Shown one piece after another: positions 4,335-28,793 of a stretch of DNA of 64,000 nucleotides. The notes below the pieces were generated by a model. The model was not told where the DNA came from. It saw only the letters and a list, made by a program, of their open reading frames with translations, and did no database searches. Source of the stretch: Janthinobacterium agaricidamnosum (GTDB taxonomy: Bacteria; Pseudomonadota; Gammaproteobacteria; Burkholderiales; Burkholderiaceae_D); NCBI RefSeq assembly GCF_003667705.1, contig NZ_CP033019.1:682001-746000 (forward strand). The letters are read 5' to 3'. The stretch's first letter is position 1. Every line of letters starts with the position of its first letter. The translations under genes and the position numbers were made by a program.

Positions 4335-5729
4335 TCAGACCAGTCCCGTCATGTAATAGAGGGCAATGACGAGGAACACGGCCACCGTCTTGATGACGGT
4401 GATGCCGAAAATATCGCGGTAGGACTGGCGGTGGGTGAGGCCCGTGACGGCCAGCAGGGTGATCACGGCGCCATTGTGCGGCAAGGTATCCATGCCGCCG
4501 CTGGCCATGGCCACCACGCGGTGCATGACTTCGAGCGGGATATGCGCCTGTTGCGCGGCCTGGATAAAACTGTCCGACATGGCGGCCAGCGCAATGCTCA
4601 TGCCGCCCGATGCCGAGCCCGTGATGCCGGCAAGGGTCGTGACGGAGACGGCCGCGTTGACGAGGGGATCGGGCACGCTGCGCAAGGTGTTGCTGACGGC
4701 AAGAAAGCCGGGCAGGGCGGCGATGACGCCGCCAAAGCCGTATTCGGACGCCGTATTCATGGCCGCCAGCAGGGCGCCGCCCACGGCCGCCTTGGTGCCT
4801 TCGGCAAAAGCGGCGCGGATACGCCCGAAGGCCGTTGCGCACACGAGCAAAATCCCCAGCAACAAGGCGCCTTCCACGGCCCAGATACCGGTCACGGAAG
4901 CGATCGCCGTGGATACGGGCGCATGCAGGCCCGGCAGGGCCTCGGCGGTGAGTACGTAGCTGGCGCCATACCAGTGCGGGATCAGCTTGGTCAGCGCAAA
5001 GTTGGCCACGCCCACCAGTACCAGAGGTGCCACCGACAGCAGCGGATGGGGCAGGGCACCCGCGTCGGCCGTGGCCTTTTCGGCCTCGGCCCCATACCCT
5101 TCGCCCGTCGCCATGACGGAACGGCGACGCCATTCCAGGAAGGCCAGTCCCATGATCACCGTCAGCACGGCGCCGATGGTGCCCAGCCATGGCGCGGCCC
5201 AGCCGGTCGTGTTGAAAAAAGTGGTGGGGATGATGTTCTGGATTTGCGGCGTGCCCGGTAAAGTATCCATGGTGAACGAAAACGCGCCCAGGGCGATGGC
5301 GCCCGGCATCAGCCGCTTGGGGATATTGCTCTGGCGGTACAGTTCCGCCGCAAATGGATAGACGGCAAACACCACCACGAACAGCGACACGCCGCCATAA
5401 GTCAAGGCGGCGCACACGGCAACGATCACGGCATTCGCGCGCGCGCTGCCGATGTAGCGGATGGCCGCCATGACGATGGACTGGGAAAAACCGGACAGCT
5501 CGATGAGTTTACCGAACACGGCACCGAGCAAAAAGACGGGGAAATACAGCTTGATGAAGCCCACCATCTTTTCCATGAAGATGCCGCTGAAGACGGCCGG
5601 CACGGCGGACGGATCGGTGAGCAATACGGCACCGAGTGCGGCGACGGGCGCAAACAGGATCACGCTGTAGCCGCGGTAGGCGGCCAGCATCAGGAAGGCC
5701 AGTGCGGCCAGAACTATCAGGAAAGACAT
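4335..5729 (-). CDS. GntP-family permease (gluconate/organic acid:H+ symporter type)
   Basis: The protein has 464 residues and roughly 12-14 hydrophobic segments. Family-like stretches include the glycine-rich region around ASEYGFGG and the C-terminal ASGGMDTLPHNGAVITLL. GntP members import gluconate, fructuronate, glycerate or related hydroxy acids. No sugar-acid enzyme lies beside it, so the substrate is unknown. It is convergent with the SSS symporter. The 128 nt between its start and tRNA-Pro hold its AT-rich promoter region. Confidence 0.85.
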   Translation of the reverse strand: MSFLIVLAALAFLMLAAYRGYSVILFAPVAALGAVLLTDPSAVPAVFSGIFMEKMVGFIKLYFPVFLLGAVFGKLIELSGFSQSIVMAAIRYIGSARANAVIVAVCAALTYGGVSLFVVVFAVYPFAAELYRQSNIPKRLMPGAIALGAFSFTMDTLPGTPQIQNIIPTTFFNTTGWAAPWLGTIGAVLTVIMGLAFLEWRRRSVMATGEGYGAEAEKATADAGALPHPLLSVAPLVLVGVANFALTKLIPHWYGASYVLTAEALPGLHAPVSTAIASVTGIWAVEGALLLGILLVCATAFGRIRAAFAEGTKAAVGGALLAAMNTASEYGFGGVIAALPGFLAVSNTLRSVPDPLVNAAVSVTTLAGITGSASGGMSIALAAMSDSFIQAAQQAHIPLEVMHRVVAMASGGMDTLPHNGAVITLLAVTGLTHRQSYRDIFGITVIKTVAVFLVIALYYMTGLV

Positions 5730-5857
5730 CGGTCAGGCCCTTGCGCGAGAAGTGATCAGGACATTAATGATGTAATTAATATCATATTTCTCGGCAACAC
5801 ACCAACGCGCAGGTCAAGGTACGGGCAGCTTAAGCCGGCACAGCAAGGGGAAACGGC

Positions 5858-15533: not shown

Positions 15534-16361
15534 ATGCGTTTCCTCCGGACAGTTGGTTTGCCCTTCTGTTTATTCATGCACTCCACACTTGCCCTTGCAT
15601 ACGGGCAGGCTGGCTCTCCCATGGCGGCGCCGGGCGCTGCCAGCTCGCGCATCGTCCGCTTCGCGGCGGAAGACTGGCCTCCCTTTATTTCCCGCAGCCT
15701 GCCTGCCGACGGCATGTCGGGCGCCATGGTCAGCGCCGTCTTCGAACGCATGGGCTATGTCGTCAAATATGAGTATTTTCCCTGGAAGCGCGCCATGCAG
15801 TTTGGCCTGGCCAGTCCCCGTTACGCCGGTTTCCTGGCCGTCTGGCGCACGCCCGAGCGGGAAAAACTCTGTCATTTTTCTGTTCCGGTTGGTAACACGC
15901 AAGGTGTGCTTGCCTACCTGAAGGAGGATGGCGTGCCCGGCGCCGCCCTGACTGATCTGGGCAAGCTGCGCATCGGCACCGTGGCCGGTTATTCGAATGG
16001 GGAGCAATTCGACGGCATGGTGGCGCGCGGCGAGCTGAGGACGGAAGAGGGCTTGAACGATGCGACGAATCTGAAGAAGCTGTTGATCAAGCGTTATCGC
16101 GTGATTGTCATCGAGCGCCATGTGCTGCAGCACTTGCTGATGGGACGCAACTTCAGCAAAGCTGAACGGGAGCGCATCGCCATCATCGATACCGTCTTCA
16201 AGGAGCGCCCCGTGCACGTGTGCTTCCAGCGCGATGCCGAAGGGGCGGCCCGGCAAAAGCGCTTCAACGAGGCGGCGCGCGATATCGACACGGCCCGCCT
16301 CGAACGCGATTACTGGAAGCGGCTCGATCAGAGCCTGGCGGCGGCGACAGCTCATCCCTGA
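15534..16361 (+). CDS. periplasmic solute-binding protein (amino-acid ABC type, SBP family 3)
   Basis: The 275-residue product has a signal peptide (about residues 1-22, ending ALA) and a type 3 solute-binding fold with segments such as RFAAEDWPPF and FPWKRAMQFGLA. In this group such stand-alone proteins resemble polar amino-acid binding proteins, but no permease or ATPase is adjacent. It is divergent from rsxB (225-nt gap). The downstream TonB receptor begins 116 nt later. The ligand is unknown. Confidence 0.75.
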   Translation: MRFLRTVGLPFCLFMHSTLALAYGQAGSPMAAPGAASSRIVRFAAEDWPPFISRSLPADGMSGAMVSAVFERMGYVVKYEYFPWKRAMQFGLASPRYAGFLAVWRTPEREKLCHFSVPVGNTQGVLAYLKEDGVPGAALTDLGKLRIGTVAGYSNGEQFDGMVARGELRTEEGLNDATNLKKLLIKRYRVIVIERHVLQHLLMGRNFSKAERERIAIIDTVFKERPVHVCFQRDAEGAARQKRFNEAARDIDTARLERDYWKRLDQSLAAATAHP

Positions 16362-16477
16362 CACTGCGCGCCGCTGTTGTTCGTTGCCAAAACGAAATAT
16401 CTAAATACGAAACCATTCGTTCTTGTTTGTTTGTCCATCCTTTAGTCTGCAGCCACTGTGTTGACGACTTTGAAAGG

Positions 16478-19018
16478 ATGTTTTCGTATGCCGGAATTGA
16501 TTCACAAGCAAGAACCCGTCCCCGTTTGCTGCAATTGGCGCACGCCGTCTCGTTGGCCGTGCTCGTGCTGGGAGCGCCTGGCGCGGCCCATGCGCAAGCG
16601 CCGCTGGACACCGTCATCGTCACGGGTGCGCGCGGCACGGGCCGCACAGTGGCCAACAGCGCCGCGCCGATCGACGTGATCAGCGCGCAGCAATTGCAGG
16701 CCACGGGCAAGTTGAACCTGCTCGACGCGCTCGATACGGCCTTGCCATCGTTTAACTTGCCGGCCCGCGTGCAGCCTGACCTGGGCAGCATCGTGCGCGC
16801 GGGCCAGTTGCGCAACCTCGACCCCTCGCATACCTTGGTGCTGGTCAACGGCAAGCGCCGGCATACGACGGCCATCGTCAATGAGGATGGCTTTCCCGGC
16901 TCCGTCGCCACCGACCTGGCCCTGATCCCCACGGGTGCCATTGCCCGCGTGGAAATCCTGCGCGACGGCGCCTCCGCCATCTACGGTTCCGACGCCATCG
17001 CCGGCGTCATCAACATCATCCTGAAAGCGGATGACAAGGGCAGCTTCAGCACGCAGCTCGGTTCCACCTACGATGGCGACGGCACGAACGGTTCCGCGCG
17101 CATCGATGGCGGCACGCGCCTGGGCGAACACGGCTTTGCCCACTTCGGCGCCGAAGTCCAGCGCCAGGGCATTGCCGTGCGTAACTTCGGCTTGAATCCC
17201 GGCTACCTGTCGTATCCGGCCGTGCGCAACAGCGATGGCCAGCTGGTCAAACTGGGGCCGAACAACAGCTTGCCAGCCGGCGCTTCGCCGAACCCGGCTG
17301 AAGCGACGCGCAACAGCAATCCCTGGCGCAATACGGGCGTGCCGCAAAGCACGACCGCCTCGCTCAGCGCCAACCTCGGTTATGACGTGTCGAACGAGGT
17401 GCAACTGTACGGCTTCGGCACGTATGCGCACCGCAATGCCCGCTCGGCGCAGAATTTCCGTCTGCCCAATACCATTTTCAATAACAACAAGGGCTTGCTG
17501 GCCGTGTATCCCGACGGCTTCACGCCGTATGAAACGACGAACGAAAACGATTTTTCCTTGACGGGCGGCATCAAGGGCGAGACGGCCGGTTGGAGCTGGG
17601 ATATCAGCAGCACCTATGGCCGCGACGATATCGACGTGGGCGTGGAGCACTCGGCCAACTATTCACTGGCTTATCCGGGCGGCAAGACGGATTTTGATAT
17701 CGGCAATCAGCGCTACAGCCGCTCGACGACGAATGCGGACGCACGCCGTCCCGTGCAGCTGGGCTTGAGCGAGCCGGCCGATCTCAGCATTGGTCTCGAG
17801 TACTCGCATGAAACCCAGCAGCGCAGCCCGGGAGAACCCGCTTCCTGGCAGGGCAGCGGTTCGTCGGCATTGGCTGGCTACCTGCCCGTCGATGCGTCCG
17901 ACACGGCGCGCCACAGCTATGCGGCGTACGTCGGCCTGGGCGCGAAGCTGACGCCGCAATGGCTGCTCGACACGGCCTTGCGCGCCGAGAAATATTCCGA
18001 TTTCGGCAGCAAGACGACGGGCCGTTTGTCCGCCCGTTATGACGTCACGCCCGCCGTGGCGTTGCGCGGCACCGTCAGCAACGGTTTCCATGCACCTAGC
18101 CTGGTGACGCAGTCGTATTCGAACACGTCGGACCATGCGGGCGTGCCCTACACCCTGGCACAGCCCAATTCCGTTGCCGCGCGGGCTCTGGGCGCGCAAG
18201 CGTTAAAACCTGAAAAATCGACGAATCTGTCGGCCGGGTTGACCTTCAACCCCACGCCGACCCTGCGCCTTGCCGTTGACGCGTATCAAATCAAGGTCAG
18301 CGACCGCCTGGGCGTGTCGTCGAATATCGGCATCGACCGCAGCTCGGGCGTGGCGCTCGATGGCAGTGGCCGGCCGCTGACGGCGGCGCAAGCGGGCGTC
18401 ATTGAAAACCTGCTGCGCTCGGCGGGTTTGACGGTGGGCAATGGCCTCGTCGCGCATTACTTTGCCAACGTGGGCGACACGCGCACGCGCGGCGTCGATT
18501 TCACGGCCGAGGATGTGCTGCGCGTGGCCGACGGCAAGCTGCGCTGGACGGCGGCCGCGAACATCAACCATACGAGCCTGGTGGGCAAGGCGGACCTTCC
18601 CGCCGTGCTGCAAGGCTTGCCGAACATCGGCACCCTGAGCAAATCGGCCGAGTACGACTTGCTGTACCGCGCGCCGCGCGACAAGGAAATCATCACGCTG
18701 GCGTATGAAAAAGCCGGCTGGACATTCAATGTACGCGAGACGCGCTACGGCAAGCTCAAGCGCCTGAACGCCATCACGGGCGGCGACTACCAGCTGAAAG
18801 CGGCCTTCGTGACGGATGTCAGCGTCGGCTACGACATCAGCAAGCGCATCAACGTGACGGTGGGCGCCAACAATGTCTTCGACCAGAAGCCGGGTCAGGT
18901 GCCGCGCGAAGCGCGCAGCGCCGCCAGCCTGGCGCAGTACACGGGCGCGTATGACAACTCGGGACCGCTGGGCGTGCTGGGCGGCTATTACTACGCCCGC
19001 GCCACCGTCTCGTTCTGA
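16478..19018 (+). CDS. TonB-dependent outer-membrane receptor
   Basis: The 846-residue product has a signal peptide (MFSYAGIDSQ through GAAHAQA, about 41 residues), a TonB-box-like TVIVTGARG, a plug domain (about 50-165, with VLVNGKRR and DGASAIYGSDAIAGVINI) and a beta-barrel ending in an aromatic residue (ATVSF). The open frame extends further upstream, but the signal peptide fixes the ATG at 16478; GAAAGG directly precedes it with unusually short spacing. The 41-nt gap to the next gene suggests co-transcription with the DOPA-dioxygenase-like protein. Substrate unknown. Confidence 0.88.
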   Translation: MFSYAGIDSQARTRPRLLQLAHAVSLAVLVLGAPGAAHAQAPLDTVIVTGARGTGRTVANSAAPIDVISAQQLQATGKLNLLDALDTALPSFNLPARVQPDLGSIVRAGQLRNLDPSHTLVLVNGKRRHTTAIVNEDGFPGSVATDLALIPTGAIARVEILRDGASAIYGSDAIAGVINIILKADDKGSFSTQLGSTYDGDGTNGSARIDGGTRLGEHGFAHFGAEVQRQGIAVRNFGLNPGYLSYPAVRNSDGQLVKLGPNNSLPAGASPNPAEATRNSNPWRNTGVPQSTTASLSANLGYDVSNEVQLYGFGTYAHRNARSAQNFRLPNTIFNNNKGLLAVYPDGFTPYETTNENDFSLTGGIKGETAGWSWDISSTYGRDDIDVGVEHSANYSLAYPGGKTDFDIGNQRYSRSTTNADARRPVQLGLSEPADLSIGLEYSHETQQRSPGEPASWQGSGSSALAGYLPVDASDTARHSYAAYVGLGAKLTPQWLLDTALRAEKYSDFGSKTTGRLSARYDVTPAVALRGTVSNGFHAPSLVTQSYSNTSDHAGVPYTLAQPNSVAARALGAQALKPEKSTNLSAGLTFNPTPTLRLAVDAYQIKVSDRLGVSSNIGIDRSSGVALDGSGRPLTAAQAGVIENLLRSAGLTVGNGLVAHYFANVGDTRTRGVDFTAEDVLRVADGKLRWTAAANINHTSLVGKADLPAVLQGLPNIGTLSKSAEYDLLYRAPRDKEIITLAYEKAGWTFNVRETRYGKLKRLNAITGGDYQLKAAFVTDVSVGYDISKRINVTVGANNVFDQKPGQVPREARSAASLAQYTGAYDNSGPLGVLGGYYYARATVSF

Positions 19019-19059
19019 TTTTCCCATCCCTCTACCGATCATCAAGAACAGGAAATCCT

Positions 19060-19737
19060 ATGTCTGAACACAATCAACACGCCGCCATCGATCTGGAATG
19101 GGCGAATCTCCTTTCGCCGCAGCGCCGCACGCTCTTGCGCGGCGGCGGCCTGGTGGCGGCGCTGGCCGCTTCCGGCCTGGCGGGGTCGGCCCTGGCGCAG
19201 GATGGCGCGGTAAAACGAGTCAATCCGCCACCCGGTAAAAGCCCATGGGGCGAGCATACGGATACGGCGCCCACGCCGCGCCCCGTCAGCGTGCGCCCCG
19301 GCGAGGAAACCTTGCCGAGCAAGCCGCGCGCCTACACGGATATCGAGAGTTATCACGCGCATATCTACTTTGACGAAGACAGTTACCAGAAGGCGGCGCT
19401 GATACGCAAGTGGGCGGCCGAGCGCTTCCAGATCGAGCTGGGCGACTGGAATCTGGAGCCGCGCGGCCCCCACGTGACGCCGTCGTTTTACTTTGGCTTT
19501 ACGAATGACCTGTTACCGGTGATCGTGCCGTGGCTGCAGCTCAACAGCCTGGGCCTGACGATATTGATCCACCCGAATACGGAAGATCCGCGCGCCGACC
19601 ACCTGTATTACGCGCTGTGGGTGAACCGTTCGCAGCCCGTGAACGGCTATGCGATGAAGAAGCCGGGACCGGGCGAGCCAAGGGTCGAGCAAATCTTTGT
19701 CAATACGCGCCCGACCGTGAAAATCGAACGGGCATGA
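19060..19737 (+). CDS. DOPA 4,5-dioxygenase family protein with Tat signal
   Basis: The 225-residue product starts with a twin-arginine leader (RR at 22-23 in SPQRRTLLRGGG, hydrophobic stretch, AQ near 47). The mature part has the DOPA-dioxygenase family pattern: YHAHIYF (H99, H101), RGPHV (H138), ILIHPNTEDPRADH (H171, H181). The family opens catechol rings next to the hydroxyls; known members are cytosolic, so the exported form is notable. It probably acts in the periplasm. It lies 41 nt after a TonB receptor and before a strong terminator. AGGAA precedes the ATG. Confidence 0.8.
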   Translation: MSEHNQHAAIDLEWANLLSPQRRTLLRGGGLVAALAASGLAGSALAQDGAVKRVNPPPGKSPWGEHTDTAPTPRPVSVRPGEETLPSKPRAYTDIESYHAHIYFDEDSYQKAALIRKWAAERFQIELGDWNLEPRGPHVTPSFYFGFTNDLLPVIVPWLQLNSLGLTILIHPNTEDPRADHLYYALWVNRSQPVNGYAMKKPGPGEPRVEQIFVNTRPTVKIERA

Positions 19738-19752
19738 GCGAGGCATAAAAGA

Positions 19753-19786
19753 AAACGCCACGCCAGTATGAACTGGCGTGGCGTTT
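19753..19786. terminator. bidirectional terminator between dioxygenase-like gene and phaZ
   Basis: AAACGCCACGCCAG and CTGGCGTGGCGTTT are perfect 14-nt arms around a 6-nt loop, between two convergent genes. Confidence 0.88.
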
Positions 19787-19804
19787 CGATGGGTATGCCG
19801 TGTA

Positions 19805-21025
19805 TCAGCCGTGTTTCTGGATGAATTCGCCGATCTTCGGGCAAATGATCTCGCGCCAGCGGCGGCCCGAGAAGATACCGTAGTGGCCGCATTTCGGCGC
19901 CACGAAGTCTTGCTGCATGTCGGCAGGGATGCCGGAACACAAGTCGTGTGCGGCTTGCGTCTGGCCGGCACCGGAAATGTCGTCCAGTTCGCCTTCCACG
20001 GTGAACAGGGCCACGTTCGTGATGTCTTGCGGACGCACCAGCTGACCGCCCACTTTCCACGTACCCTTCGGCAGGCTGAATTCCTGGAAAACCGTTTTAA
20101 TGGTTTCCAGGTAGTACTCGGCCGGCATGTCCAGTACGGCGTTGTACTCGTTGTAGAACTGGCGGTGGCCTTCCGCCGGCTCGTCATCGCCCGTCACCAG
20201 GTGCATGTAGAACTCGCGGTGGCTTTGCGCGTGGCGGCCCGGGTTCATGGCGATGAAGCCGGCGTGCTGCAGAAAGCCCGGATACACCTTGCGGCCAAAG
20301 CCTGGGTAGTTCGGCGGCACCGCGTAGATCACGGTGTTTTCAAACCACGAGAACTTCTTTTCCGTCGCCAGGTTGTTTACTTGCGTGGGCGAGCGGCGCG
20401 GGTCGATCGGGCCGCCCATCATCGTCATGGTTTTCGGCATGTGCGGATCTTTTGCCGTCGCCATCAGCGAGATGGCGGCCAGCACGGGCACGGTCGGTTG
20501 ACAGACGGAAATCACGTGCAAATCAGGCGCCAGCAGGCGGATGAATTCTTGCACATAATAAATGTAGTCATCGAGGTGGAACGGGCCTTCCGTCAGCGGT
20601 ACCATGCGCGCGTCCGTCCAGTCGGTGATGTAGACATCGTGCTCGGCCAGCAAGCCGCGCACGGTATCGCGCAGCAGGGTCGAGTGGTGACCGGACAGGG
20701 GGGCAACCAGCAAAACTTTGGGCTGTTGCAAGCCAGTGGCTTCTTTTTTGAAGTGAATCAGGCGGCAAAACGGTTTTGTCACGACAACGTGTTCGCGTAT
20801 GTCGACGCTCTCGCCCTGGACGAGAACGGATTTGATGTCGAATTGCGGTTTTTCGTAGTCTTTGCCAAGGCGGTACATCAGCTCGTAGCCGGCTGCGATG
20901 CGTTGCGAAAACGGGGTGTGGGCCAGAGGGGAAACCGGGTTGGTAAATAACTTGGAGGACATGTCTGCCCATTGCATCACCGGAGTGAGGAAAGAGCGTT
21001 GCAGTTCGTGCAGTTGGTAAAGCAT
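19805..21025 (-). CDS. phaZ: intracellular polyhydroxyalkanoate depolymerase
   Basis: This 406-residue protein starts MLYQLHELQRSFLTP, like the intracellular PhaZ of Cupriavidus. The nucleophile is a cysteine (C175 in VISVCQPTVP), as in that family, rather than the serine of extracellular enzymes. A C-terminal histidine lies in CGHYGIFSG. There is no signal peptide, so it acts on cytosolic PHB granules. The ATG at 21025 is preferred over one at 21073 because it gives the family start. An unlinked PHA-system gene lies at 23967. Confidence 0.92.
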   Translation of the reverse strand: MLYQLHELQRSFLTPVMQWADMSSKLFTNPVSPLAHTPFSQRIAAGYELMYRLGKDYEKPQFDIKSVLVQGESVDIREHVVVTKPFCRLIHFKKEATGLQQPKVLLVAPLSGHHSTLLRDTVRGLLAEHDVYITDWTDARMVPLTEGPFHLDDYIYYVQEFIRLLAPDLHVISVCQPTVPVLAAISLMATAKDPHMPKTMTMMGGPIDPRRSPTQVNNLATEKKFSWFENTVIYAVPPNYPGFGRKVYPGFLQHAGFIAMNPGRHAQSHREFYMHLVTGDDEPAEGHRQFYNEYNAVLDMPAEYYLETIKTVFQEFSLPKGTWKVGGQLVRPQDITNVALFTVEGELDDISGAGQTQAAHDLCSGIPADMQQDFVAPKCGHYGIFSGRRWREIICPKIGEFIQKHG

Positions 21026-21200
21026 ATAGAGTCCTTGTTTGATTCCAAGCGCCAATATCGGCTCAAATATCATAATCCAATTTTACGATATTTGTTGAGG
21101 ACAAAATGTGCTTTACCGCGCATAGGTCCACTGTTTGCGCATAGTTGTGACAGCGCGCCACAGTTACGTGGATAGAGCTGCAACGATGCTTTAAAAGCAA

Positions 21201-21226
21201 AAAAAGCAGCGTTTCCGCTGCTTTTT
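21201..21226 (-). terminator. terminator downstream of fdxA
   Basis: AAAAAGCAGCG and CGCTGCTTTTT are perfect 11-nt arms around TTTC, about 80 nt beyond the ferredoxin stop. A T-run follows on either strand. Confidence 0.75.
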
Positions 21227-21304
21227 GTCTGTTTTTTTGCCGCCACGCCCCTGCGGGGAAGAATATCCATCCCCGCCGGAATTGCCGCCGCAGCTGCCGT
21301 GCGC

Positions 21305-21628
21305 TTAGCGCACCAGCATGTCGAGCTTGTCCTTGACGTCCTTGTATTGCTCCGCTTCCGGCAAGGCAGCTTTCGTCTTGGTGATCGAAGGCCAGTTACG
21401 GGCCAGATCGACGTTGATCTTGATGAAGGCTTGCTGGTCGCCCGGCACGTCCTCTTCCGCGAAAATCGCGTTCACCGGGCACTCTGCCACGCAGACGGCG
21501 CAGTCAATACATTCGTCCGGATCGATTGCCAGGAAGTTCGGGCCTTCCCGGAAACAATCTACCGGGCAGACATCGACGCAGTCGGTATAGCGACAGGCGA
21601 TGCAGGATTCGGTGACAACGTGGGTCAT
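21305..21628 (-). CDS. fdxA: 7Fe ferredoxin, FdxA type
   Basis: This 107-residue ferredoxin carries [17 protein letters not shown], typical of a [3Fe-4S]/[4Fe-4S] pair, then [12 protein letters not shown]. The C-terminal extension (about 60-107) matches FdxA rather than short 8Fe ferredoxins. It is a soluble electron carrier; the partner is not identified. The 331 nt upstream, to the emfourin-like gene, hold its promoter region and no convincing further gene. Confidence 0.92.
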
Positions 21629-21935
21629 AACAGTCCTATCAATTTGGGGGAGGTGCTGTAGCGCCTGCAGGAACCTCGGCGGCGCATACTAAAGCAAAGC
21701 ATTGTATTTTAAGGCAATTCGCTATTTCTCACAAATCCCGCTTATATACAATACATATAAGCAAATTCATTTTTTGGCAGTGTCATTGCCGCGCAGAGCG
21801 GGCAATTCAGCGACTATCCGGGACGTTGCCATGAAGAACGCGGCAAGAACGCGACAGTCGCCCGATGCGGCAGGGAGCAGGGCGGGGGATGTGCTGGCTT
21901 GACGTGTGGTGTTTTTGTTTTACTCAAATCAAGAT

Positions 21936-21953
21936 CGGCACAAATAAGTGCCG
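21936..21953 (-). terminator. hairpin downstream of the emfourin-like gene (weak terminator)
   Basis: CGGCAC and GTGCCG pair around AAATAA, beginning 7 nt past the stop of the emfourin-like gene. The following bases on the minus strand (TCTTGATTTG) are not a clear T-run, so termination is only possible. Confidence 0.4.
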
Positions 21954-21959
21954 GAACAC

Positions 21960-22247
21960 TCAGGCGCTGGCGCGTATTTGCGCCAGCAATTGCTGCCATC
22001 GTGCATTTTCAGCACTGCCATCCTCGGCAAACGTGATGGTGCGGCGCGCGGTGGGCGCATCGACGGTGATCTGCCAGCGGGGAATATCGGCGCCCACCTG
22101 TTCATCCGTGGCCTGCGGCTGCGTGAAAAAGCCGCTGCTGGCCAGTGCCGCTTCCAGCCTGGGGCCAGCGGGATGGGCTTGCGTATCGATCTCATACTGT
22201 TCGCTCAGGCCGGCAAAGCCGCCGCTGCTGCGGGCTGAAATTTTCAT
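21960..22247 (-). CDS. emfourin-like metalloprotease inhibitor
   Basis: The 95-residue product starts MKISARSSGGFAG and continues with the RSxGGFAG, DT and FF...P pattern that I recognise from emfourin, the inhibitor encoded beside protealysin in Serratia. It has no signal peptide. AAGGAG sits 6 nt before the ATG, which excludes the longer open frame upstream. The neighbour upstream on the same strand, 103 nt away, encodes a zinc metalloprotease, as expected for a protease-inhibitor pair. The inhibitor role here is inferred from family and context. Confidence 0.75.
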   Translation of the reverse strand: MKISARSSGGFAGLSEQYEIDTQAHPAGPRLEAALASSGFFTQPQATDEQVGADIPRWQITVDAPTARRTITFAEDGSAENARWQQLLAQIRASA

Positions 22248-22350
22248 GCTGCTCCTTGCTGTTGTGGGTGGTGTGGGCCGCGTCATGGCCTGCCGCTGCT
22301 GCGGCTGGCCTGAAGCGGACGCGCCGGTGCGCTGCCTTGCATGGGACTGG

Positions 22351-23748
22351 TTACCGGGGACCGTAACTGCGGCACCAGGCGGCCAGCGCTTCGCGCTCCG
22401 CTTCGAGCAACTGGTCCGATTCGCTGTATTCCGCATGGTTCATGGTACCGCAGCAGGCGCGCCGGTCTTGCACGGCGCCGTCTTCGTCGACGATATCGGG
22501 GGCAAATGTCATTTGCCCCTCCTCCGTCATGGCATTGGCCTTGAGCACTTCGCGCACGGTAAAGCTGTTGCGGATAAAGTCCAGGTAGGCGCCGTTGCCG
22601 TCGGCCTGGGCGATCGTCAGCATGTGGCCGGCCACGTCGGCATAGGTGGCGGCCTGGTCCGGCGATGCCACCAGCGCGCGCAGGACCAGGCTGCGCAGGT
22701 AGTCGCCGCAGCGGTGCAGGACGGCCGCATCGTCTTCCAGCTGGGGCTGGCGTTCGTGGGCAAAGATGTCGGCCAGGATGTCGTAGATGGCGCCCGTAAA
22801 CACTTGCGAAATGGCGTGCACTTCCGTGCCCGCTTCCGACAATTTGATGTCATTGTCGGCATTACGCAAGCCATTCGGCCGGCCCAGGGCCAGGCCGAAC
22901 TGCTCGGCCAGGTCGGCCAGGAAGGTCTTGTCGTGCAGGTCGGATTTCGTTTGCGCGATCACCGCTTCCACCTGGTCCAGCTGCGACAGGGCCAGGAAGA
23001 TGGCCGTCAGGTCGCCAAACGATTCGTGCAAGCCGCCCGTTTGCGGCGGATTATTGCTGAGCAGCCAATTCGGCTTGAGGCCATCGAGCACGGCGTGCCC
23101 CGTTTCATGCGAGACGATGTCGAGCGAGCGGCAGGTGTAGACGCGCTCGGTGGCGCCGCTGGGGATGAAGTCGCCGAACTTGAGCGCCTTGTCGCTGCGG
23201 CTGTAATACGCATTCATGACGTTGGGCAAGCCATGCGGGAACACGCGCAGCGGTGCCGTATTGCTGGCGCTGTTCCATTGCCAGGGTAGGGGCGGCGCCG
23301 TGTCGTTGCTGGCCAGCGCGCGCTGGTACATGGTGAGTGTCATGCGCACGATGGCAAACGTGTGCACGGCGTCGAACTGGTCGGTATTGGGCGAGACGAT
23401 GAAGTCGCCGAAGGCATTCGGGCTGACTTGCGCGATGCCCGGTTCGCCAAACGTGATGCGCGCGTCGCGCGGGCCTTGCAGGATCAGCCCGGGCAAAAAG
23501 GCTTTACGGGTGCCCAGGTCGCTGACGGACGGATCTTGCTTCCAGATCAGCACGCGTGAACCGACGGGCACGGCGGCCAGGTTGCGCACCGTTGCCTCCG
23601 TCAGGCGGGGCGGGCCCGGCTGCAGGGTCAGTTGCGCATTCTTGCGGTGCTGGCGGTAGGGCGCCGAGGGGGTAGGGACATAGCCGACGGGCAGGGACAC
23701 GCATTTGGTCAGGACGGCTTCGACCGGCACGATGACTTTCTGGTCCAT
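22351..23748 (-). CDS. leaderless M4-like zinc metalloprotease
   Basis: This 465-residue protein has the gluzincin signature: HETGH at 214-218 (two zinc histidines and catalytic Glu) and HESFGDLTAIF at 241-251, where E242 is the likely third ligand and D246 the supporting Asp. The sequence is only distantly thermolysin-like, and no PLP-type short propeptide is obvious. No signal peptide is seen, so it is cytosolic or exported by a non-classical route. The ATG at 23748 has GGAG about 10 nt upstream; the open frame continues 88 codons further through a tandem repeat but looks non-coding. The emfourin-like gene follows. Confidence 0.78.
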   Translation of the reverse strand: MDQKVIVPVEAVLTKCVSLPVGYVPTPSAPYRQHRKNAQLTLQPGPPRLTEATVRNLAAVPVGSRVLIWKQDPSVSDLGTRKAFLPGLILQGPRDARITFGEPGIAQVSPNAFGDFIVSPNTDQFDAVHTFAIVRMTLTMYQRALASNDTAPPLPWQWNSASNTAPLRVFPHGLPNVMNAYYSRSDKALKFGDFIPSGATERVYTCRSLDIVSHETGHAVLDGLKPNWLLSNNPPQTGGLHESFGDLTAIFLALSQLDQVEAVIAQTKSDLHDKTFLADLAEQFGLALGRPNGLRNADNDIKLSEAGTEVHAISQVFTGAIYDILADIFAHERQPQLEDDAAVLHRCGDYLRSLVLRALVASPDQAATYADVAGHMLTIAQADGNGAYLDFIRNSFTVREVLKANAMTEEGQMTFAPDIVDEDGAVQDRRACCGTMNHAEYSESDQLLEAEREALAAWCRSYGPR

Positions 23749-23770
23749 GGTAGTTCTCCAAGACACGCGC

Positions 23771-23800
23771 AACTGGAACTGGAACTGGAACTGGAACTGG
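23771..23800. repeat. five tandem copies of AACTGG
   Basis: Five perfect 6-nt units lie 23-52 nt upstream of the metalloprotease start, on the 5' side of its ribosome-binding site. Such short tandem repeats can change copy number by slippage. Here a change would alter leader or promoter spacing without affecting the chosen reading frame. Confidence 0.9.
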
Positions 23801-23966
23801 AATAGTCGTCCCGCTTGGGCGCATCCGGTTTGATTCCGCGCAAACGATGCGCGGGAAGGACGGGCTTTTTTGGCCGTCCGGCGCCCGCTGCGGCCGTGCC
23901 CGCCGCATGGCGGCTGGTATGATGCTGGCCGTATTGCCCCCGTTTTTATAATAAAAGGATCGTTTG

Positions 23967-24251
23967 ATGGCGGATATAAATATAGTTCAGCAACATAAGC
24001 TGACAGCAGCAAAGGCGCGCGAAGCGGCGCAGCAAGTGGCCGACAAGCTGGCCCAGGAATATGACCTGGCGTGCGCCTGGGATGGCGATGTGCTGCGCTT
24101 CGAGCGCAGCGGTGTCGATGGTTCGCTGACCCTGGAAAAAGAGCAGGCGCAACTGCAAATCAAGCTGGGTTTCATGCTCAGCGCCTTCGCCTCCACGATT
24201 GAAGGCAAGATCGCCGAGAAAATGCGCAAGGTGTTTACCGAAGCAGTTTGA
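23967..24251 (+). CDS. polyhydroxyalkanoic acid system family protein
   Basis: This 94-residue protein begins MADINIVQQHKLTAAKAREAAQQVADKLAQEY, matching the small PHA_gran_rgn family found with PHA granule genes. It is soluble and amphipathic. AAGGA lies 8 nt before the ATG. It is divergent from the metalloprotease. The exact role of the family is not settled; association with granules or their regulation is assumed. Confidence 0.8.
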   Translation: MADINIVQQHKLTAAKAREAAQQVADKLAQEYDLACAWDGDVLRFERSGVDGSLTLEKEQAQLQIKLGFMLSAFASTIEGKIAEKMRKVFTEAV

Positions 24252-24429
24252 TGGCATTTGGCCCGCTTGTCTGGCGCCCTGTTTGGTGCTAGTGAGCATG
24301 TCGCGGCGATGGGCGAAAAGACGATGAAAACATGTCGCTTTTCGCCTTTTTTACGTCCGACTGTACGCTGGCGAACATTGCTAGCACATTTCTATTTGGA
24401 AAGCCATTGGACTTTGATGGCTTTTTGCA

Positions 24430-24591
24430 TTATACTTGAGTCATATTTACAACAGCTACACCGCGTTTCACCTTCTGCTTCGCAGTACTCTCCGCTCGCT
24501 GAGTGGTGAATAATTCTTCGGGTTTTACACCCGCATCCAGTTTAAAAGTAGCTTGGTCGATTTTTTTTCGGTCAAATACATTTGGTGCCAT
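24430..24591 (-). CDS. possible small lysine-rich protein (hypothetical)
   Basis: An open frame of 53 codons starts MAPNVFDRKKIDQATFKLDA and ends VVNMTQV. Composition is protein-like, hydrophilic and charged, with lower GC than neighbouring genes. I recognise no family and see no strong ribosome-binding site. It occupies part of the 585-nt gap between the PHA-system gene and proV; the rest of that gap (24252-24429 and 24592-24836) shows nothing else I can name. Confidence 0.3.
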   Translation of the reverse strand: MAPNVFDRKKIDQATFKLDAGVKPEELFTTQRAESTAKQKVKRGVAVVNMTQV

Positions 24592-24836
24592 GTATTTGCA
24601 TGGCGCTAGCGTTGTTAAAAGTCCTGAACCACAGCCTCTTTTAGCACGCACACGGCACCCCGGCACCGGCTTTGGCCATCCGCTGGTCACACGCGTGTCA
24701 CCCCCTGTTTCCTGTCGCTCCCGTGCGCATTGTGCGCCGTGGCGTAGCCGACGCAACAGGGTTTGCTGATTCCCGCCGCAAGCTAGCAGGCTTGCTGGGT
24801 TTCAATCCATTCGTCAAATCGAGGGAGAACCACATC

Positions 24837-26069
24837 GTGGCAAAACAAATCATTATCGACCATGTGTTCAAAGTGTTCGGCGACAAGCCAGAAGAAGCAC
24901 TTGAACTCGTCCGTCAGGGCGCCAGCAAGCAGGACATCCTGGCCAAGACCGACTGCACCATCGGCGTCTTCGACGCCACCTTTACCATTGAGGCGGGCGA
25001 GATTTTCGTCATCATGGGCCTGTCCGGTTCGGGCAAGTCGACCCTGGTGCGCATGCTGAACCGCCTGATCGAGCCCACCGCCGGCCGCATCCTGATCGAC
25101 GGCAACGACATCAATACCTTGCCGGACGCCCAGCTGCGCGCCCTGCGCCGCAAGGATATCAGCATGGTGTTCCAGTCGTTCGCGCTGCTGCCGCAAATTA
25201 CCGTGCTCGACAACACTGCCTTCGGCATGGAACTGGCCGGCATGCCCAAGGCCGAGCGCCATGCGCTGGCCCAGCAAGCGCTGGAACAGGTGGGCCTGGA
25301 CGGCTACGGCGCCAGCTATCCCGACGAATTGTCGGGCGGCATGCAGCAGCGCGTGGGCCTGGCCCGTGCGCTGGCTTGCGATCCATCGATTTTGCTGATG
25401 GATGAAGCGTTTTCCGCGCTCGATCCGATTATCCGTACGGAAATGCAATCGGAACTGCTGCGTTTGCAGCAAATCAAGCGCCGCACCATCGTCTTCATTT
25501 CGCATGACCTCGATGAAGCCATGCGCATCGGCGACCGCGTCGCCATCATGAAAGACGGTCACGTGGTGCAAGTGGGCACGCCGGAAGAAATCCTGCGCAA
25601 GCCGGCCAACGATTATGTGCGCAACTTCGTGCGCGGCGTCGATGCGGCGGCCGTCTTCAAGGCCAGCGATATTGCCCGCAAGAGCCAGATCGTCGTATCG
25701 GAATCGCCGAGCCGCGGTTCGCGCGCCGCGCTGTCGATGCTGGAAGAGCAGGATCGCGCGTTTGCCTACGTCGTCAATCCACAGCGCAAGTTCCTCGGCG
25801 TCGTCTCGGCCGATTCGCTGCGCAGTGCGCTCGACGGCCATGTGGGGCCGCTGGGCCTGGCCCATGCCTATCTGCCCGACGTGCAGACCATCGATGCAGA
25901 CGAGCCCGTCGCCGGCCTGTTCGGCCAGGTGGCGCAACTACCTTACGCCGTCCCTGTGGTGGCCAATGACGGCAGCTTCCGCGGCGCCATCAGCAAGACG
26001 ACCTTGCTGAAGTTCCTCGACCGCGACACGCCAGCCATAGCCGAACAACAACAGAAAGGACAAGCATGA
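24837..26069 (+). CDS. proV: glycine betaine/proline ABC transporter ATP-binding protein
   Basis: This 410-residue ATPase starts at GTG 24837 with GGGAG upstream; the frame is open further upstream but without family sequence. Walker A is GLSGSGKST, the signature is LSGGMQQR, and Walker B is [13 protein letters not shown]. The N-terminal extension (about 1-45) and C-terminal CBS-like region (about 280-395) match ProV/OpuAA. Its stop overlaps the proW start (ATGA). It powers compatible-solute import. Confidence 0.92.
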
Positions 26070-27169
26070 ACCCAAGCACCGTTTCCACAGTAGAACCTGT
26101 TGTTGAACAGGCCGCCCAGATCAATCCCTGGGCGCTGACGCCCCCCACCGACGCCAGCACCGCCTGGCTCGACGCCGCCGCGCCTGCCGTGCAGCCGGAA
26201 CATGCGGCCGGCTTTCACCTGACGCAGATTTTCGACGGCTCGCTGCCGCTGGAAAGCTGGATCAACCAGGGCCTGGGCTGGGTCGTCGCGCATTTCCGCC
26301 CGTTCTTCCAGGCCGTGCGTGCGCCGATCGACAGCGTGCTGTCCGGCGTGGAAGGCGTGCTGCTGGCCGCTCCGTCGCTGACGGTGATCGCCATCATCGG
26401 CTTGCTGGCGTGGCAATTTACGAGCCGCACCCTGGCCATCGGCACCGTGCTGGCGCTGCTGCTCGTGTCGATGCTGGGCATCTGGCCGGAAGCCATGACG
26501 ACCCTGTCGCTGGTGTTGACGTCGCTGGCCTTCTGCCTGGCCATCGGTTTGCCGCTCGGTATTTTCCTTGCCAGCAGCGACCGCGCACAGAATATCCTGC
26601 GCCCCTTGCTCGACGCCATGCAGACGACGCCTGCCTTCGTCTACCTGGTGCCGGTGGTGATGCTGTTCGGTATCGGTAATGCGCCGGGCGTGATCGTCAC
26701 GATCATCTTTGCCCTGCCGCCGCTGGTGCGTTTGACCAACCTCGGCATCCGCCAGGTGCGTCCCGACCTGATCGAAGCGGCCCGCGCCTACGGTGCCTCG
26801 CCGTGGCAGTTGTTGACCCGCGTGCAGTTTCCGCTGGCCATGCCGTCCATCATGGCCGGTATCAACCAGTCGCTGATGCTGTCGCTGTCGATGGTCGTGA
26901 TCGCTTCGATGATCGCCGTGGGCGGCCTGGGCCAGATGGTATTGCGCGGCATCGGCCGCCTGGACATGGGCCTGGCAACGGTGGGGGGGCTCGGTATCGT
27001 GCTGCTGGCCATCACCCTGGATCGCTTGACGCAAGCGATGGGCCAGCCACGCCGCGGCGTGCGCCACTGGTACCAGACGGGTCCCGCCGGTTTCGTGCTG
27101 CGCCTGGTGCGCGGCAACACGGAGAAAAATAATGTTGAACAGCAAGCAACGCTGGCCAACGCACAATAA
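26066..27169 (+). CDS. proW: glycine betaine/proline ABC transporter permease
   Basis: The 367-residue inner-membrane protein has a long N-terminal region (about 1-95) as in ProW, then about seven membrane segments. The ABC permease EAA-like loop is visible around [19 protein letters not shown]. It is coupled to proV by a 4-nt overlap and to proX by a 12-nt gap. The C-terminus is hydrophilic. Confidence 0.92.
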
Positions 27170-27181
27170 GAAAGGATTTAC

Positions 27182-28240
27182 ATGCATCAAATTGACAATT
27201 TTAAAGTGACGCAAAAATCGCAACGCAAGTTCCAGCTGTTTTCCGCCCTGGCCATCGCCGCCATGGCCCTGACCACCAGCCTGGCCATGGCGCAGGCGCC
27301 GGCCGCAACGGCTGACGCGCTGCCCGGCAAGGGCGTCAAGGTGCAGCCGCTGCAAAGCTCGATTGCGGAAGAAACCTTCCAGACCATGCTGGTCGACAAG
27401 GCCCTGGAAAAGCTCGGCTACGAAGTGCAGCCGATCAAGGAAGTGGAATACCCGACCGCGCATATCGCCATCGCCAACGGCGACGCCACCTTCATGGCTG
27501 TGCACTGGGACCCGATGCACAAGGATTTCTATAACAATGCGGGCGGCGACGCCAAGTTGTCGCGCACGGGCCAGTATGCGGGTCCTGCGGCGCAAGGTTA
27601 TCTGATCGACAAGGCGACTGCCGAGAAATACAACATCACGAATATCGACCAGTTGCGCGATCCCACCCTGGCCAAGCTGTTCGACCACGATGGCGACGGC
27701 AAGGCCGATTTGACGGGCTGCAACCCGGGCTGGGGCTGCGAAGCGCTGATCGAGAACCACATGGATGCGTACAAACTGCGCGAAACGGTAACGCACGTGC
27801 AGGGCAGCTATGCGGCCCTGATCGCCGACACCCTGGGCCGCTACAAGCGTGGCGAGCCTATCCTGTACTACACGTGGACGCCGTACTGGGTCAGCGGCGT
27901 GCTGGTGCCGGGCAAGGACGTGGTCTGGCTGAAAGTGCCGTTCTCGGCCAATCCCGACAAGGTGAACACCCGCCTCGACGATGGCAGCGACTACGGTTTT
28001 GCCGTCAACACGGCGCGCATCGTATCGAACAAGGCCTGGGCGGAGAAAAATCCGGCCGCGGCCAAGCTGTTCGAAGTGATGCAATTGCCCGTGGCCGACA
28101 TCAATGCGCAGAACGAGCGCATGCGCCGCGGCGAAAACACGCAGTCCGATATCGCCCGCCATACGGCCGGCTGGATCAAGTATCACCAGCAAAAGTTTGA
28201 CGGCTGGATCGCGCAAGCGCTGGCGGCGGCAAAAAAGTAA
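27182..28240 (+). CDS. proX: glycine betaine/proline-binding periplasmic protein
   Basis: The 352-residue product has a signal peptide (about 1-39, ending SLAMAQA) and an OpuAC-type binding domain. Aromatic residues in [15 protein letters not shown] and [11 protein letters not shown] resemble the tryptophan cage that binds quaternary ammonium groups. A terminator hairpin follows. Expression is probably osmotically controlled, which the sequence does not show directly. Confidence 0.92.
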
Positions 28241-28267
28241 ATTACGGCTGATACAGGCGTAAAAAGA

Positions 28268-28294
28268 GTGGCTACCGGTTTGATAGCCACTTTT
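28268..28294 (+). terminator. terminator after proX
   Basis: GTGGCTA and TAGCCAC pair around a 9-nt loop and are followed by TTTT, 28 nt past the proX stop. Confidence 0.7.
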
Positions 28295-28331
28295 GCGTTA
28301 ACAGCCTGTTTTTGTGGTTTTTGGTGAGTTT

Positions 28332-28793
28332 TCAGCCGTTTTCGGCCAGTTTCAGGTGCAAAATGGGGAAAGGCTTGCCAAAGGGGTCGCATTCCGACCG
28401 GTTTTCCCCGATAAAACCCAGGTGGCGGTAAAAGCCGTGCGCTTGCGTGTTGTGCTCATTGACGTCGACGGCCGTGGCGCCCAAGGCCGTGATGGCGTAC
28501 TGGACCAGCGTGCGGCCGGCGCCGCTGCCGCGTTGATCGGGATGCACGAACAGCATCTCGATCTTGGCGTGCTCGACGCACAGGAAGGCGTACGGGACAC
28601 TGTTGGCATCGCGTAGCACGTGAAGCCGATGGTCCGCCGTCACCCTGGCCAGCTCATCGCGAACGAAGGGCATGAGGAAAGCGATATCGCTGTCGGCGAG
28701 GAAATCGTGGGTGGCGCGTACGGACAGGTGCCAGACGTCGAACAAACGGGGCAGGTCGGCGGCATGGGCCAGGGAAATCGGTGATGGTGTCAT
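28332..28793 (-). CDS. GNAT-family acetyltransferase
   Basis: This 153-residue protein has the acetyl-CoA-binding motif A (IEMLFVHPDQRGSGAGRTL) and a C-terminal HGFYRHLGF, typical of GNAT enzymes; the whole resembles the YjaB-like group. The acceptor substrate is unknown. It stands between the proX terminator and the acyl-CoA-binding protein gene on the same strand. Confidence 0.85.
   Translation of the reverse strand: MTPSPISLAHAADLPRLFDVWHLSVRATHDFLADSDIAFLMPFVRDELARVTADHRLHVLRDANSVPYAFLCVEHAKIEMLFVHPDQRGSGAGRTLVQYAITALGATAVDVNEHNTQAHGFYRHLGFIGENRSECDPFGKPFPILHLKLAENG

Follow-up and report, generated by a model that had tools for sequence, protein, structure and literature searches.

A recurrent two-gene unit of a divergent gluzincin metallopeptidase and an emfourin in Janthinobacterium agaricidamnosum and other genomes

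A two-gene unit of metallopeptidase and emfourin

We analyzed a stretch of 64,000 nucleotides (nt) from Janthinobacterium agaricidamnosum (contig NZ_CP033019.1, positions 682,001 to 746,000), hereafter the window, in which two neighbouring genes at 21960..23748 encode a metallopeptidase with conserved catalytic residues and a small protein of the emfourin family. We are reasonably confident that this two-gene unit encodes a zinc metallopeptidase of the cytoplasm, from a divergent gluzincin family lying between peptidase families M4 and M36, together with an emfourin inhibitor of its own. An earlier reading of the letters alone (the original prediction) had pointed to this pair, and both open reading frames (ORFs) are real, with exact coordinates:

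22351..23748, minus strand: divergent gluzincin metallopeptidase gene, 465 amino acids, ATG start (ORF; Pfam M4 match below cut-off; predicted fold similar to M36 and M4 enzymes)
21960..22247, minus strand: emfourin gene, 95 amino acids (ORF; PF20242 match of 36.6 bits)

Recurrence of the pairing

Counted at E<=1e-160, the enzyme is present in 41 genomes of our family sample (195 genomes from the bacterial family of the window); any match at E<=0.001 extends this to 53 genomes, those beyond the 41 being weak partial matches. By position, an emfourin adjoins the enzyme in 33 of the 41 genomes, and our own emfourin profile adds three, giving 36 of 41. Five enzyme genomes are without emfourin, and in two of these the enzyme gene is split over contigs. 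We rejected PF20242 alone as a measure of emfourin absence: it overlooked three genomes (G125, G182 and G094), all positive by our own profile.

The named loci, on which all counts out of 80 are based, are the best 80 of 167. Emfourin lies directly 3' of the enzyme in 58 of these loci and was not found in 20; the other two loci break off at most 170 nt from the enzyme and are left uncounted for emfourin. In 20 of the 58, the stop codon of the enzyme gene and the start codon of the emfourin gene overlap by 4 nt. Because emfourin stands next to the enzyme in so many genomes and loci (36/41 and 58/80), the adjacency is not a matter of chance.

Tight linkage and stop/start overlap would suit a subunit or chaperone equally well, i.e., the small protein might help the enzyme to fold, or activate it, and not inhibit it. 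Against this, the known function of the emfourin family is inhibition (PMC9505478), and several lineages keep the enzyme without an emfourin gene. We regard a helper role as very improbable.

PF20242 occurs in the family sample at 46 places in 45 genomes. It lies beside the divergent enzyme at 33 of these places and beside canonical protealysin-like enzymes at 10, which leaves three others (genomes G001, G151 and G159). The place in G151 is partly masked and has no HExxH ORF within 3.2 kb, the match in G159 is below cut-off, and the orphan emfourin of G001 falls, by our own profile, outside the clade of emfourins of the kind found in the window (window-type). At the G001 locus (L165, emfourin frame 5349-5780) we observed no M4-type neighbour within 11 kb; the sole HExxH open frame in that range reads HEFVH and is on the opposite strand. 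A further genome (G139) bears both modules, with one emfourin beside a canonical protealysin-like enzyme and another beside the divergent enzyme. Across a phylum sample of 398 genomes there are 25 emfourin matches: 22 beside canonical enzymes, two beside the divergent enzyme, and one, below cut-off, without such a neighbour.

The divergent metallopeptidase

The enzyme has the following motifs:

23095..23109, minus strand: HETGH, residues 214-218, the zinc-binding/catalytic motif; counterpart of HELxH in the alignment with canonical partners
23011..23028, minus strand: HESFGD, residues 241-246, within GGLHESFGD; E242 pairs with the NES glutamate in the same alignment
22807..22821, minus strand: VHAIS, residues 310-314; VHA(I/L)S in 78 of 79 loci
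22438..22470, minus strand: C-terminal QDRRACCGTMN motif, residues 427-437, from an alignment of 84 rows

HExxH is kept in all 79 enzyme loci examined, and it stands with a downstream Glu within a thermolysin-like predicted fold, as in gluzincins (the thermolysin clan). Judging from the alignment, E242 would be the third zinc ligand, and H311 is the probable transition-state histidine, which we take to correspond to H231 of thermolysin. In the C-terminal motif, Q427, D428, R429, C432, C433, G434 and T435 are invariant in the 84 rows.

By the Pfam test, the enzyme is outside the protealysin group. Its scores are under Pfam's own thresholds (PF01447, 20.0 bits against a cut-off of 22.4; PF02868, 14.7 against 24.4), and three canonical protealysin-like neighbours score 104.7-115.7 (Peptidase_M4) and 171.9-184.3 (M4_C). 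The enzyme has no Pfam M36 match at E<=1 and, in NCBIfam, a chance-level match only (E 0.23), with none at E<=0.01. PDB sequence searches with it returned no metallopeptidase, where relatives in families outside the structure searches could remain. No signal peptide is visible by Kyte-Doolittle hydropathy, a simple measure and the only one applied (highest 11-residue mean in the first 45 residues, 1.6). The original prediction of a divergent metallopeptidase that is not a protealysin and lacks a visible signal peptide thus agrees with the Pfam scores and the hydropathy.

The small protein as an emfourin

The small protein had been called emfourin-like, and the profile searches proposed as a sequence-based check on this place it with emfourin, by PF20242 as well as hhalign. 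It matches PF20242 above the curated cut-off of 27 bits (36.6 bits, E 6.3e-9), and all 65 aligned relatives match PF20242 at E<=0.01. Aligned by hhalign, window-type emfourins and those with canonical partners agree over 93 columns (97.1%, E 5.8e-11). Several close relatives carry the NCBI name 'protealysin inhibitor emfourin'; the window emfourin itself has no NCBIfam match. Two features are conserved:

22209..22223, minus strand: GGFAG loop, residues 9-13; G9 and G10 hardly vary among 29 emfourins, window-type and canonical
22086..22088, minus strand: Asp54, candidate zinc-ligating residue, from its conservation

Asp54 is the sole invariant column among the 29 emfourins and is also invariant in 65 window-type rows. 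Serratia emfourin acts by a zinc-plug mechanism, and an invariant Asp54 fits such a mechanism as far as sequence can tell. In our reading, emfourin would bind the enzyme one to one, Asp54 would ligate the catalytic zinc and the GGF loop would fill the substrate cleft. Enzyme molecules turning active inside the cell would then be silenced by emfourin.

A change of partner

One branch, with support of 100/98, splits 65 window-type emfourins from 25 canonical ones. Of these 65, 36 have the divergent enzyme seen adjacent (the window and 35 loci), and the other 29 are database proteins placed by similarity only. Since the window-type emfourins form one clade, the partner probably changed once, in a tree of 95 columns where long branches meet and the side of the root is unsure. 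Emfourin thus probably moved within Oxalobacteraceae from a protealysin-type partner to the divergent enzyme, a single change being the simplest reading.

It is conceivable that the main target of the emfourin is another metallopeptidase, e.g., an M4 enzyme elsewhere in the genome, and that its position is incidental. The genome, a single contig of 6.36 Mb, does have one match to PF01447, in a 953-amino-acid open frame at 5.15 Mb, and emfourin is reported to inhibit thermolysin besides protealysin (PMC9505478). However, the adjacency of enzyme and emfourin spans genera and includes stop/start overlaps, the window-type emfourins are a single clade, and in one genome without the enzyme the emfourin copy has decayed (see below). 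We therefore consider a target elsewhere unlikely, and retain the adjacent enzyme as the partner.

Loci without emfourin and the conserved neighbourhood

In the 20 emfourin-less loci, where emfourin was searched at the locus only, the catalytic motifs of the enzyme are intact without exception (20/20). Mapped on the enzyme tree, emfourin presence changes seven times, at least six of these on branches with a Shimodaira-Hasegawa-like approximate likelihood ratio (SH-aLRT) of 95 or more, this being a quick tree with SH-aLRT and no bootstrap in which gain and loss look alike. We prefer loss, because in each half of the tree the emfourin gene has an identical position. Among the enzyme's sites, two positions (176 and 196) change where emfourin is missing, which is no more than chance.

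The pair lies among genes that are conserved around it, two of them for polyhydroxyalkanoate (PHA) metabolism or granules:

21305..21628, minus strand: ferredoxin gene, downstream (Fer4 and DUF3470), in 75 of 80 loci; presumably FdxA
19805..21073, minus strand: PHA depolymerase gene (PhaZ), downstream (TIGR01849), in 75 of 80 loci
23964..24251, plus strand: PHA granule region protein gene, upstream and divergently transcribed (PF09650 and TIGR02610), in 77 of 80 loci

For 24 chosen genomes that lack the enzyme, we inspected the ferredoxin gene with 1.5 kb of flank on each side. In four (L166, L168, L170 and L171), the PHA-granule gene is directly beside the ferredoxin gene with neither gene of the pair between them; in L169 it is further away, with another gene between; and in 18 it does not appear within the inspected flanks. 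The remaining locus, L167 (genome G106), has an emfourin remnant over two frames (2006-2538) upstream of the ferredoxin gene. This decayed copy, a single case, is the sole window-type emfourin seen without the enzyme. The enzyme is often alone and the lone emfourin is decayed, a pattern expected of an inhibitor serving the enzyme and not of an antidote essential to the cell.

An interbacterial role has been proposed for Serratia protealysin and emfourin (PMC9505478), and the two-gene arrangement is the same here, so the pair might be an effector with its immunity protein, the enzyme being delivered into other cells and emfourin shielding the producer and its kin. Several points oppose this. 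The PHA and ferredoxin neighbours are conserved (75-77 of 80 loci), the hydropathy measure shows no signal peptide, and 20 of 80 loci have an enzyme with intact motifs but no would-be immunity gene, a state that a lethal effector should not tolerate. Moreover, we found no secretion gene or delivery domain among 11 proteins scanned at 16220-28793 (the pair and nine others), the rest of the genome not having been searched. Because the enzyme is often without emfourin and its PHA/ferredoxin setting is conserved, an effector-immunity cassette or an obligate antidote is quite improbable. These observations likewise lend no support to the interbacterial or host-interaction role of the original prediction, or to a role in secretion. 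The suggestion of self-protection made in that prediction is plausible in the form of a dispensable safeguard, given the 20 loci and the seven tree changes. What fits best is emfourin as an inhibitor that guards against a cytoplasmic protease and can be dispensed with.

A possible second brake

23569..23748, minus strand: N-terminal extension of the enzyme, residues 1-60, with a PTPSAPYR-type motif, outside the matched fold; predicted local distance difference test mostly <50

To say that the enzyme has no obvious short propeptide, as had been done, is unsafe, since about 60 residues with a conserved motif precede the predicted catalytic fold. P20, P25 and P27 are invariant in the 84 alignment rows, and it is possible that residues 1-60 are a propeptide. 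The short protealysin-type propeptide is defined by a PPL motif (PMC6778150). PF16485, the corresponding family, fails to match the window enzyme; among three canonical controls it matches one, below cut-off, and misses the other two. Protealysin builds up in an inactive precursor form and becomes active after lysis (PMC6778150). The N-terminal stretch here may be a separate zymogen brake, and if such a brake is real, it would explain the loci that lack emfourin.

We tentatively extend this to a reading that is possible, if short of probable: emfourin would be a general plug of thermolysin-clan active sites that, in Oxalobacteraceae, exchanged protealysin once for an enzyme of a large, unnamed family of intracellular gluzincins with a predicted fold nearer to fungalysins, and the enzyme's own N-terminal brake would have let the inhibitor become a dispensable second safety.

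Regulatory features

22248..22350, minus strand: intergenic spacer of 103 nt with GGAG at 22252-22255, from sequence reading
21936..21953, minus strand: terminator-like hairpin directly 3' of the emfourin stop codon, a consensus match only
23771..23802, no strand assigned: hexamer repeat of 5.3 copies upstream of the protease GGAG, from sequence reading

GGAG lies shortly 5' of the start codon of both the emfourin gene and the protease gene (for the latter at 23756-23759). None of the nine terminator-like sites found in the region, where shuffles give 4.5 expected, is in the spacer. The intergenic stretch 22248-22353 folds at -40.6 kcal/mol (z -2.55), equalled by four of 200 shuffles. The AACTGG hexamer repeat lies about 20 nt before the protease start, and 19 Janthinobacterium loci have one to two copies in the same place; it could be a variable spacer.

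Comparison with known systems

With M36 fungalysins, the window enzyme shares 13-15% identity; unlike them, it is bacterial, has no visible signal peptide and is accompanied by an emfourin-type inhibitor. Also comparable are unnamed gluzincin relatives from other Pseudomonadota (L044-L049), which have the signatures HExxHA(V/L/I/C)LD and (F/L)HE(A/S/G)F(A/G)D and, in the five scanned, no Pfam M4 match above cut-off. Their similarity to the window enzyme is only partial, however, and in L045 the enzyme domain is fused behind a subtilase domain (Peptidase_S8) in one long ORF; L046 is similar, L045 being the one scanned with Pfam. No emfourin was found near the distant relatives L044-L050 (3.3-3.7 kb per locus for L044-L049).

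We found no report of emfourin paired with the divergent enzyme in the titles and abstract beginnings searched, and two primary emfourin papers may mention the pairing. An emfourin beside a protease that is not its usual partner suggests that emfourin took on a second kind of target enzyme. If true, its target range reaches beyond protealysin-like enzymes to a family undescribed by Pfam and NCBIfam, and the pair would be a naturally occurring switch of partner, useful for asking how a single inhibitor scaffold tracks diverging metallopeptidases. The many lineages that keep the enzyme without the inhibitor are ready-made comparisons on emfourin's purpose.

Among the nearest known systems is the single operon of protealysin and emfourin in Serratia proteamaculans (M4 protealysin subgroup and PF20242). 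Its emfourin forms a one-to-one complex at the active-site region and is an inhibitor of thermolysin too (PMC9505478). The window unit resembles this operon in the order of protease then inhibitor, in the emfourin family, in the inhibitor's conserved Asp and GG loop, and in the location of the enzyme, intracellular in Serratia and without a visible signal peptide here. It differs in its partner enzyme, which is not protealysin-like: the Pfam M4 match is below cut-off, there are extra N- and C-terminal parts (465 amino acids, against mostly 341-377 in nine canonical ORFs from this bacterial family), and the motifs are HETGHAVLDGLKP and GGLHESFGD in place of HELxHG and GALNES. The window module probably works like the Serratia operon.
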